Source: Bacillus sp. ISL-41 (GTDB lineage: Bacteria > Bacillota > Bacilli > Bacillales > Cytobacillaceae). From it: a stretch of 36,662 bases of DNA. Shown here in pieces: positions 33,243 through 36,540 of the stretch. The position numbers were made by a program, and so were the translations under genes. Numbering within the stretch: position 1 is the first letter of the stretch; the number at the start of each line of letters is the position of its first letter. The stretch covers positions 1 to 36,662 of the forward strand of contig NZ_JAGGQP010000050.1 in assembly GCF_018613235.1 (NCBI RefSeq). The letters are read 5' to 3'. A model generated the notes under the pieces. That model was given only the letters and a program-made list of their open reading frames with translations. It searched no databases and was not told where the DNA came from.

Positions 33243-34910
33243 TTAAACCTCCATAATGATCGGCAGGATCATTGGACGGCGTTTTGTTTTTTCGTAGAGG
33301 AAAGGTGCAAGCGTATCAGTGATTTCGTTTTTGATTTCTGACCACTGAGTTGTTTTTCTTTCCATTACTTTATTTAAGTGCTTATTAATCAGGCTTTGTG
33401 CGTCGTTGATCAGGTCGCCTGATTCACGCATATAGACAAATCCGCGTGAAATAAGGTCAGGACCCGCAGCAATCTTGAATTCTTTCATATTGATGCTTAC
33501 TACTACAACGACAAGGCCTTCCTCAGACAGGATTCGACGGTCGCGAAGAACAATGTTCCCTATATCGCCAACCCCACTTCCATCAATGTAGACATTGCCG
33601 GAAGGAATCTTGCCAGCTACGCCAACCTCATTATCGCCAAGAGCAAGCACTTCACCGTTATCCATGATAAAGCAGTTCTCTTGAGGAACTCCACAATCAG
33701 TTGCGAGTTTCGTATGCATCTTTTGCATGCGGTACTCACCATGGATTGGCATAAAGTATTTCGGTTTGATCAGGCGAAGCATCAATTTCTGCTCTTCCTG
33801 ACCACCGTGTCCTGAAGTATGAATGTCGTTCAATGAACCGTGGATAACATCTGCACCTGCACGGGACAACATGTTGATTGTCCTGTTAACGCTGATGGTG
33901 TTACCAGGGATCGGAGAAGACGAGAACACTACTGTATCGCCAGGCTGAATTTGGATTTGGCGGTGTGTACCGTTCGCAATCCTTGATAAAGCAGCCATTG
34001 GCTCGCCCTGACTTCCGGTACAAAGGATTGTAACCTGGTTGGCAGGGAGTCTGTTAATTTGCTGTGCTTCAATGAATGTATCCTTTGGCGCATTGATATA
34101 GCCAAGTTCTTGTCCAATAGTAATTGCCGATTCCATGCTTCGTCCGAATACAGCAACTTTTCTGCTATTAGCGACCGCAGCTTCGACAACCTGCTGCAGG
34201 CGATGGATATTGGAAGCGAAAGTAGCAAAGATGATCCGTCCATCCACTTTTCGGAAAATATCATGAATGCTTTCACCAACACGGCGCTCAGACATCGTGA
34301 AGTGCGGAACCTCGGCATTTGTACTGTCCGAAAGTAAGCAAAGGACGCCTTCTTTGCCGATTTCAGCCATTTTTGTCAAATTGGCTGGTTCACCAACAGG
34401 TGTAAAGTCAAACTTGAAATCGCCAGTGTGGACGATTTGGCCTGGAGGCGTTTTCACTACGACACCATATGAATCAGGGATACTGTGTGTCGTTCTGAAG
34501 AAAGTGACCGAAGTTTTACGGAACTTGATGATGTCGTCTTCCTTGATTTCGATCAGCTTCGCTTTACGCAACAAACCGTGCTCTTCAAGCTTGTTTCTGA
34601 TCAGGCCGAGTGCCAGCTTGCCGCCATAGATTGGAACATTGATTTCGCGCAGTAAATAAGGGATGCCGCCGATGTGGTCTTCGTGGCCATGGGTAATGAA
34701 TAGGCCCTTGATTTTGTCTTCATTTTTTACCAGGTAGGAATAGTCAGGGATAACATAATCGATACCCAGTAATTCATCTTCTGGGAATTTTATGCCGGCA
34801 TCGATCAGGATGATTTCATCCTGGAACTGCACCCCATAGGTATTCTTGCCGATTTCGCCTAGTCCACCGAGCGCGAAAACGGCTGTTTGGTCATTTTTAA
34901 CGAATTTCAT
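33243..34910 (-). CDS. rnjA: Ribonuclease J1
   Basis: Ribonuclease J1, 555 residues, the same length as in B. subtilis. It is a 5'-3' exonuclease and endonuclease central to mRNA decay and 16S rRNA maturation. The beta-lactamase/beta-CASP core shows [10 protein letters not shown] (H74, H76, D78, H79), [18 protein letters not shown], the beta-CASP motif around [15 protein letters not shown], and the late [15 protein letters not shown] and [19 protein letters not shown] precedes the ATG. It follows rpoY after 3 nt, so the two are co-transcribed, as in B. subtilis. Confidence 0.98.
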
Positions 34911-34913
34911 AAA

Positions 34914-35126
34914 TTATTCGATCTCCAATACTTCAAAGTTTTCTTTTTGCTTTTCATACTCAAAATAGTTACCCTCAACTGCCTCGACATATTCAATATT
35001 ATATTGGCGATCAGCTATTTTTGTCCGTACATCTTTTTCAGTGTCCGCTTTTACATAAATGGTTTGTGTTTTTTCGCGAACTGGTACTTGCTTGTTGGAT
35101 TCCTGGAAGTAAACTTTAAAAATCAT
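34914..35126 (-). CDS. rpoY: RNA polymerase epsilon subunit
   Basis: RpoY (YkzG), 70 residues, a small Firmicutes-specific subunit of RNA polymerase. It is recognised by MIFKVYFQESNKQVPVREKT, TIYVKADTEKDVR and YNIEYVEAVEGNYF, and by its fixed place before rnjA. AAGGAGAGAGA precedes the ATG. The gene's stop and the rnjA start are 3 nt apart. It binds near the secondary channel and is proposed to give phage resistance or to modulate the enzyme. Confidence 0.96.
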   Translation of the reverse strand: MIFKVYFQESNKQVPVREKTQTIYVKADTEKDVRTKIADRQYNIEYVEAVEGNYFEYEKQKENFEVLEIE

Positions 35127-35299
35127 TAAAAATCTCTCTCCTTAATTAACTTTTTCTATTTAATAGGCAATTTCCGATGAAACATTTTGAAGATTTATGC
35201 GATTCCCTGCCAGGGATATACCAAAGGTAGACGAACTGATTTGTAGGTAAAGCATAACTCTGTCAAAACGATAAACGAAATCCGCCATATATAAAAATT

Positions 35300-35317
35300 A
35301 ACAATGTTACCATTGTT
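35300..35317. promoter_or_regulatory. Operator-like dyad upstream of rpoY-rnjA
   Basis: AACAATG (35300-35306) and CATTGTT (35311-35317) form a perfect 7-bp inverted repeat around TTAC. It lies 175 bp upstream of rpoY and downstream of the peptide gene's hairpin, so it could serve either unit. No T tract follows, which argues against a terminator. Confidence 0.35.
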
Positions 35318-35368
35318 ATTATCCATCGTGTCATGTTTTCCGCTATTAACCAATTTACAATAAGGAAG

Positions 35369-35394
35369 GAGCCCTTCGCAAGTTTGAAGGGCTC
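35369..35394 (-). terminator. Hairpin after the 23-aa peptide gene
   Basis: GAGCCCTTC (35369-35377) pairs perfectly with GAAGGGCTC (35386-35394). On the minus strand it begins 6 nt after the peptide stop and is followed by CTTCCTTATT, a moderately T-rich tail. On the plus strand As follow, so it is meant for the minus strand. Confidence 0.75.
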
Positions 35395-35400
35395 AAAAAG

Positions 35401-35472
35401 TTAAGCGATTGTTTTTTTTCGAAGCAAATCTTTCCACTGTTTTAAAAGCTTCTTTCTTAGCTTCTTTAACAT
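35401..35472 (-). CDS. Putative 23-aa cationic amphipathic peptide
   Basis: A 23-codon ORF reads from ATG at 35472 to TAA at 35401. Ten residues are Lys or Arg and one is Asp (net about +9). Leu2, Leu5, Leu9, Leu10, Trp13, Leu16 and Leu17 fall on one helical face, with basic residues on the other: a textbook amphipathic helix. The ribosome site AAGGAGATGATC matches the 16S complement AAGGAGGTGATC at 11 of 12 bases, with 10 nt from AGGAG to the ATG. A hairpin follows the stop. I recognise no family. It is either a membrane-active or membrane-binding small protein or, less likely, a chance ORF in a regulatory RNA. Confidence 0.6.
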   Translation of the reverse strand: MLKKLRKKLLKQWKDLLRKKTIA

Positions 35473-35769
35473 AGTGGATCATCTCCTTAGTTCTTATTTT
35501 AAACTATCCTTGTCCAAAGTAAAGTAAACAAGGAAAAGTTTAACTAAGTTTATTTTTCAAATTCCTATCTTTTTGTTTATATTATATGATGAAATAGCAA
35601 ATTTTTTCATGGGTATTGATGGAATGACATAAATTGTCATTGTTTTGACACAGTTTTAGACTTCTTATTTCTGTACATGCACGCAGCGATTTGGTAGACT
35701 ACCGGGATTACATAATACAAATCAATAAGTAAGAAAATAATTTCAATCATTGCATCGAAGGAGAAGATC

Positions 35770-36540
35770 ATGAGCAAAATCGTATTTTTTGATATAGATG
35801 GTACACTGTTGGACCATGATAAAAACCTGCCGGCCTCTACAAAAGAGGCAATTGTTACATTAAAAAATAATGGGGTTTTTGTAGCCATTGCTACAGGGCG
35901 GGCTCCATTTATGTTCGAATACCTGAGAGAAGAGCTGGAGATAGATTCTTTTGTGAGCTTTAACGGACAATATGTGGTGTTTGAAGGGGAGCCAATCAGC
36001 CAGAACCCTTTAAATAATGGAAAGATAGAAGAACTTTATTTCGAAGCTGCTGATAAGGGCCATCCAGTTGTTTTTATGAACCATATGACCATGAAATCAT
36101 CAGTGAAGCACCATGAATACATTGAAAAAAGCCTGGGGGGCCTGAAGTTCGCCCATCCTGAACACGATGACCGATTTTATGTAGACCGCGAACTCTATCA
36201 GACACTATTGTTCTGTGAAGAAGGTCAAGAGAAGTATTATAGGGAGACCTACCCTGAGTTTAACTTTATCAGGTGGCATCCATACTCTGTTGATATCCTG
36301 CCAGCAGGAGGGTCTAAAGCAGAAGGAATTAAGAAGATGGTGGAGCGATTAGGTTTCAAACGGGAAGATGTATACGCTTTTGGTGATGGGTTGAATGACC
36401 TTGAGATGATTCAAGCAGTAGGTACAGGGGTTGCCATGGGCAATTCTGTCCCTGAATTAAAGAAACTCGCTAATATGGTTACCCGTGATGTAGATGACGA
36501 TGGAATCTGGCACGGTTTGAAAGAGCTGGAATTGATTTAG
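35770..36540 (+). CDS. ykrA: HAD-superfamily Cof-type phosphatase YkrA
   Basis: A 256-residue HAD hydrolase of the Cof (IIB cap) subfamily. Motif I is FFDIDGTLLDHD (nucleophile Asp8 and acid Asp10), motif II is VAIATGRAP, motif III is the Lys in GGSKAEGIKKM, and motif IV is FGDGLNDLEMI. The cap domain lies between about residues 85 and 180. It probably dephosphorylates a sugar phosphate or cofactor such as FMN or PLP; the substrate is not readable from sequence. GAAGGAGAAG precedes the ATG. Position after rpoY matches B. subtilis ykrA. Confidence 0.95.
   Translation: MSKIVFFDIDGTLLDHDKNLPASTKEAIVTLKNNGVFVAIATGRAPFMFEYLREELEIDSFVSFNGQYVVFEGEPISQNPLNNGKIEELYFEAADKGHPVVFMNHMTMKSSVKHHEYIEKSLGGLKFAHPEHDDRFYVDRELYQTLLFCEEGQEKYYRETYPEFNFIRWHPYSVDILPAGGSKAEGIKKMVERLGFKREDVYAFGDGLNDLEMIQAVGTGVAMGNSVPELKKLANMVTRDVDDDGIWHGLKELELI

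Follow-up and report, generated by a model that had tools for sequence, protein, structure and literature searches.

The window analyzed here is a stretch of 36,662 nucleotides of DNA from Bacillus sp. ISL-41, whose genome is assembled in 57 contigs and whose nearest named relatives, as judged by rpoY, include Mesobacillus. Its minus strand carries the genes for the RNA polymerase epsilon subunit (rpoY) and RNase J1 (rnjA), preceded by a 23-codon open reading frame (ORF), and a ykrA-like gene lies in the divergent orientation (Table 1). The ykrA-like gene is assigned to the HAD phosphatases, in line with PMC10433868.

The translation of the ORF (35472-35401) is the peptide MLKKLRKKLLKQWKDLLRKKTIA, which contains 10 Lys/Arg residues and one Asp. 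The ribosome site in front of it, AAGGAGATGATCC (35488-35476), matches the 16S complement AAGGAGGTGATCC at 12 of 13 bases, and in many relatives the locus comparison shows AAGGAG followed by TGATCC at this position. A hairpin of 9 bp (35394-35369), with a tail that is only moderately U-rich, begins 6 nt past the TAA stop codon. A highly basic ORF, a near-perfect ribosome site, and a hairpin after the stop had all been proposed in an earlier, sequence-only reading of the window, and each was found in place.

Table 1. Features of the peptide gene and its neighbors in the window
Feature	Coordinates	Strand	Basis
-35 hexamer TTTACT	35518..35523	-	Window; many relatives have TTTACT, TTTACA, or TTGACA there
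-10 hexamer TAAAAT, with 23 nt between its end and the start codon	35496..35501	-	Window and relatives
Extended Shine-Dalgarno AAGGAGATGATCC	35476..35488	-	Window sequence; relatives
23-codon ORF with TAA stop, MLKKLRKKLLKQWKDLLRKKTIA	35401..35472	-	Window sequence; 91 distinct coding sequences of relatives
Intrinsic-terminator-like hairpin and tail	35357..35394	-	Window; relatives
rpoY (RNA polymerase epsilon), downstream neighbor	34914..35126	-	Relatives match solved epsilon subunits
rnjA (RNase J1), downstream neighbor	33243..34910	-	3zq4, an RNase J1 structure, matches rnjA in two relatives
ykrA-like gene, divergent neighbor	35770..36540	+	Not detected in every relative

The peptide was initially described as resembling no known family, and this was borne out by the searches, as it has no match in Pfam, NCBIfam, or the PDB. 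When 28 members of the peptide family were compared with NCBIfam, one gave a weak match to the VraH family (NF033835, E 0.042) and the other 27 gave none, which does not support a relationship to VraH. The same comparison with PHROGs returned three weak single-member matches (best E 0.093). A known structured-RNA family was also rejected, as the Rfam covariance models did not match the region 34900-35800 up to E 5. Searches of open-licence papers in PubMed Central found no mention of the ORF among the matches listed, and the peptide strings matched no paper. A prediction of coding ORFs in B. subtilis sRNAs gave 69 ± 30.5 (PMC5521070), and its main text names neither ykrA nor ykzG; no passage on the ORF was found in PMC2784878, PMC8266666, PMC8216469, and PMC10433868, searched by term.

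Conservation and genomic position of the 23-codon frame

For the comparison, rpoY was recovered in 60 of 61 related genomes (30 of which were turned into loci) and in 66 named contigs. A filter on length (23 codons) and on an -IA-type end left 125 copies of the ORF, 91 of them distinct, with 79 of the 96 rpoY loci passing; claims about length and C-terminus therefore rest on a set collected without the length filter. Start, frame, and stop are preserved in the 91 distinct coding sequences. The 33 closest have a pS of 0.54 and a pN of 0.05 (pN/pS 0.09, vs 1.70 and 4.21 in the other two frames), and the ratio is 0.30 and 0.46 in the more distant groups (n = 44 and n = 14) and 0.28 for all 91 sequences (other frames, 1.23 and 1.07). 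The other frames have a pN/pS of at least 0.95 in each of the three identity groups (33, 44, and 14 sequences). By codon position, the entropy is 0.73 bits (first), 0.47 bits (second), and 1.39 bits (third). Judged from these alignments, the peptide is under purifying selection and its ORF is a real gene. The synonymous/nonsynonymous comparison in relatives, which the earlier reading had named as a check, thus came out in favor of the frame, and a chance ORF is ruled out by the pN/pS of this frame vs the others. An overlapping frame of 29 aa that starts within the ribosome site is not conserved.

At E ≤ 0.05, a profile of the peptide (A2) matched 230 of the order's 299 genomes and missed the other 69. 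At E ≤ 0.01, it matched 75 of 398 genomes of the class: 34 of the 38 genomes of its own order and 41 others (38 in family f35, one in f41, and two in f58). All 25 inspected f35/f41 loci (17 and 8 in two batches) lie beside rpoY-rnjA. The two f58 matches do not and look like chance hits. Upstream of rpoY in the 66 named loci, 57 peptides scored above 25 bits, one (Gottfriedia, L062) scored 13 bits, and eight scored below 10 bits. Of these eight, L085, L089, L093, and L095 (Fictibacillus) have another basic ORF, preceded by a ribosome site, in the position of the peptide, and L094 seemingly does too when read by eye; no such ORF was seen upstream of rpoY in L068 and two Listeria loci. One genome, with an rpoY product identical at 68 of 68 residues to PDB chain 6wvk_E, encodes MLRKLRKKLRRQWNGMLRKKAIA at this place. 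This chain is from B. subtilis, and the genome that carries MLRKLRKKLRRQWNGMLRKKAIA is almost certainly B. subtilis too.

Both genes were found in 173 distinct loci, and in each of them the peptide gene precedes rpoY on the same strand, at a distance of 22 to 997 nt including the stop codon. The ykrA gene is divergent in 130 of these loci, was not detected in 42, and falls beyond the end of one locus that is too short. This comparison excluded L001, L099, L146, L216-L220, loci without both genes, and repeated sequences. As many of the loci were fetched via rpoY, the unbiased support for linkage comes from the whole-genome profile matches, and those inspected sit upstream of rpoY-rnjA except in L099, a weak match, and in L146, L248, and L249, where the match lies within a longer frame. 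In the Bacillus sp. ISL-41 genome, a profile search found one strong copy of the peptide (next match, E 0.26). In this and 16 other genomes, further matches are weak and partial, with E 0.0076 or worse, and no match was found on plasmids.

Two departures from the usual arrangement were observed. Family f14 peptides have an extended C-terminal tail, and the stop codon is separated from rpoY by 19 (L251), 21 (L250), or 31 nt (L148); from these short gaps, the peptide probably heads the rpoY operon in the three loci. Longer gaps are kept in two further f14 loci (L147 and L216). All five share a GGGATTGGATCGG-like motif upstream of the peptide. In genome G043 (contig C1, locus L196), MLKKLRKKILKRWSKLINQNLLPEF is kept beside rnjA with no rpoY frame between them and no rpoY match in the whole genome. 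rpoY thus appears to have been lost there, which makes rnjA the most constant neighbor of the peptide. Two genomes (G694 and G717) have neither an rpoY nor a peptide match. The best RNase J found in them is only 49% identical; these assemblies therefore probably lack RNase J1 along with the rest of the locus, and a co-loss test based on these genomes was set aside as uninformative.

Promoter and terminator signatures and the predicted transcript

The -35 and -10 hexamers upstream of the ORF are separated by 16 nt and form a promoter-like site (35523-35496) that scores 9/12. In the window alone, such sites are not more frequent than expected by chance (9 in 34600-36400 vs 5.6 in shuffles), so the promoter is supported by the relatives rather than by the window. 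A sigma-A-type promoter is found within 60 nt upstream of the start codon in 67 of 91 loci (6.7 in shuffles), and in 63 of these 67 the -10 hexamer ends 21-23 nt ahead of the start. A sigma-H reading of the promoter was rejected by eye because its spacing departs from the consensus. At the other end, of 91 distinct loci, 69 carry a terminator-like hairpin no more than 75 nt past the stop (3.0 in shuffles). rpoY itself is directly preceded by a promoter-like site in 50 of 81 loci (16.3 in shuffles; 81 distinct upstream stretches out of 96). Within the genus (20 of 21 loci, L013 being too short), identity is 0.97 for the promoter-to-ribosome-site stretch, 0.96 for the ORF, and 0.98 for the hairpin and tail, with 0.80 in the upstream and 0.62 in the downstream flank. 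The parts at this locus had been read as a complete tiny gene, and promoter, ribosome site, frame, stop, and terminator indeed all recur in relatives. Because the peptide gene has its own promoter and terminator signatures and rpoY has a promoter-like site as well, the peptide gene looks like a separate short transcription unit in most lineages, with transcript ends that we infer from these signatures.

Several other elements were seen around the gene. The region upstream of the promoter (35530-35600) has an identity of 0.86-0.93 within the genus and could hold a regulator site, and TTTGGACAAGGAT recurs between the -35 and -10 hexamers in several genera. In three Priestia loci (L049, L070, and L079), the usual hairpin is replaced by a longer possible structure after the stop, with a shared TGCAGAG...CTGCATCGTA core. 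In two Niallia loci (L053 and L055), what follows the peptide is a different element (TCTTTCTATTAGGGCGAGACCTCGCAT in L053), and rpoY lies far downstream.

The assumed transcript (35357-35488) is predicted to fold with a z score of -3.43, better than 200 of 200 shuffles, and its ribosome site pairs with the tail. In 90 predicted transcripts, counted with no shuffle control, the ribosome site is paired with the 3′ region in 55, paired within the ORF in 32, and open in three. Compared with codon shuffles, the folds of the ORF gave mean z scores of -1.28 (n = 33), -0.64 (n = 44), and -0.01 (n = 14). Synonymous choice looks constrained at codons 3, 4, 8, and 12. All 41 sequences with CCAC before the start codon have CAG at codon 12, and those lacking CCAC have eight CAG and 20 CAA; with sequences that are related, this association is suggestive only. 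The hairpin (35357-35394) is present once in the genome (up to three mismatches allowed). Its loop and tail, GCCCTTCNNNCTTGCGAAGGGC, are kept in 52 of 222 loci, same-genome repeats included, which exceeds the need of a plain terminator.

Properties and possible roles of the peptide

In 63 peptides (the filtered set and that of B. subtilis), charge ranges from +6 to +10, and the best-kept residues are L17 and K20 (63/63 each), L5 (60/63), L9 (57/63), and W13 (52/63). This set had been prefiltered for length (23 codons) and for an -IA-type end. Without the length filter, 45 of 48 places, all found with a full-length profile, end at position 23 (the exceptions are L117, L147, and L148). The usual C-terminus is -(T/S)IA. 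It is not universally fixed, as the Alkalihalobacillus-like, Fictibacillus, Gottfriedia, and f14 peptides lack the -IA end, and so does the one in G043. The Alkalihalobacillus-like versions finish with ...LLPKNRLLEV or similar. AlphaFold2 predicted a helix at residues 2-21 of a 33-aa homologue (single sequence, mean pLDDT 70). The conserved hydrophobic columns 2, 5, 9, 13, 16, and 17 span a helical arc of 120°, which is equaled by only 219 of 27,132 position sets (0.8%), but the hydrophobic moment of the window peptide is reached by 901 of 10,000 self-shuffles (9%). This peptide has a mean hydrophobicity of -0.39, a moment of 0.43, and a charge of +9.

The reading that we favor, tentatively and at somewhat less than even confidence, is that the peptide is a cytosolic basic amphipathic helix that docks on RNA machinery, with RNase J1 and the ribosome as the first candidates. 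The sigma-A-type promoter, strong ribosome site, 23 codons, and terminator would give an mRNA of ∼110-130 nt, and its product would be a strongly basic amphipathic helix of about residues 2-20 with a Leu/Trp stripe. In the cell, the Leu stripe and the basic face would dock on RNase J1, on the ribosome, where RNase J1 occurs according to PMC8152036, or on RNA polymerase. A specific partner in RNA machinery is favored by the linkage to rnjA, the strictly kept Leu residues, and the -(T/S)IA with which the peptide usually ends. The operon-like gaps in f14 and the retention beside rnjA in G043 point the same way. At positions 17, 5, and 9 of the 63 peptides, Leu is retained rather than any hydrophobic residue, and the peptide is kept where SpoIVA is absent or broken. 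However, gene order in Bacilli is conservative and the linkage may mean little, and the free exchange of Lys and Arg and the charge of +9 would also fit a helix at the membrane surface. The unmatched genomes of the order and the loci in which no such ORF was seen weigh against it as well.

The main rival, which is possible but unlikely, is a peripheral membrane helix that would lie flat within the inner leaflet and recruit or tune an envelope protein, as SpoVM-like or membrane-targeting amphipathic helices do. In addition to the charge, a Leu/Trp stripe inside 140° and a Trp in the middle of the face are consistent with it. However, the hydrophobicity and moment of the window peptide place it below the surface-seeking zone in the Eisenberg plot, Leu is seldom swapped for other hydrophobic residues, and the constant neighbors found are rpoY-rnjA. 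SpoVM is a 26-aa amphipathic membrane helix of Bacillus spores that is under sporulation control. The peptide is similar to it in length and as an amphipathic helix but differs in that its gene has sigma-A-like signals and persists in three genomes in which SpoIVA is absent or broken (G220, G062, and G434), so retention seems not to be tied to sporulation as expected of a SpoVM type.

It is improbable that the ORF acts as a leader peptide, whose translation would govern terminator read-through into rpoY-rnjA. Like leaders of the TnaC kind, it is a tiny ORF ahead of an operon with a terminator near its stop, and the constant position upstream of rpoY and the frequency of the terminator-like hairpin would suit this role. 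In contrast to such leaders, its distance to rpoY varies widely, a promoter-like site directly precedes rpoY in many loci, and three of the five f14 loci read leave no room for a terminator. Moreover, conservation extends along the peptide, and the C-terminus varies in several lineages. We give a similarly low probability to a dual-function RNA, in which the transcript would also base-pair through the C/U-rich tail of its hairpin. The hairpin and tail are slightly more conserved than the ORF within the genus, the hairpin occurs as a single copy, and the strong predicted fold pairs the ribosome site with the tail. However, the ends of this transcript are assumed, the hairpin sequence is limited to part of the family, with other lineages having a different one or none seen, and selection on the peptide extends further than the hairpin sequence.

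A toxin, bacteriocin, or antimicrobial-like peptide, as the sequence-only reading had guessed, is very improbable: the peptide is very short, like type I toxins, and has the cationic amphipathic composition of antimicrobial helices, but it lacks the hydrophobic membrane-spanning character of type I toxins, is present as one strong copy per genome in one conserved place in the 173 compared loci and in two order-level groups, is under purifying selection, and is without a match on plasmids. Its distribution in the order is not patchy, and the neighbors sought were rpoY, rnjA, and ykrA. A sporulation peptide is just as hard to credit, as a SpoIVA match in 22 of 23 carrier genomes tested is set against a sigma-A-like promoter and intact peptides in G220, which has no SpoIVA match, and in G062 and G434, where the SpoIVA matches are partial, contain an internal stop, and look broken; from these genomes, sporulation seems not to be needed for keeping the peptide.

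If the peptide does dock on RNA machinery, it could tune its partner as SR1P does for GapA-RNase J1. SR1P, a B. subtilis protein that binds GapA and increases the activity of RNase J1, is a different protein of 39 aa and is not a basic Leu-stripe helix. The likeness lies elsewhere: as described in PMC8152036, SR1P is a small protein confined to Bacillales, encoded at a conserved genomic place by a short RNA, and acts on RNase J1, and the peptide shares these traits, the action on RNase J1 being only a guess in its case. A bolder proposal, which we consider rather unlikely, is that the peptide is an overlooked 23-residue core protein of Bacillaceae and a neighboring order-level group that serves as a dedicated accessory factor of RNase J1 or of the RNA decay machinery on the ribosome, encoded beside its target and kept even where the intervening epsilon gene has been lost.

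Should the peptide gene be confirmed, it would be one that Bacillus relatives, very probably the model B. subtilis among them, have widely retained and that a length of only 23 codons has kept out of the protein family libraries. The locus of two central RNA enzymes would gain a conserved component with a ready genetic handle, and the variants found in nature and gathered here indicate which residues are worth testing.
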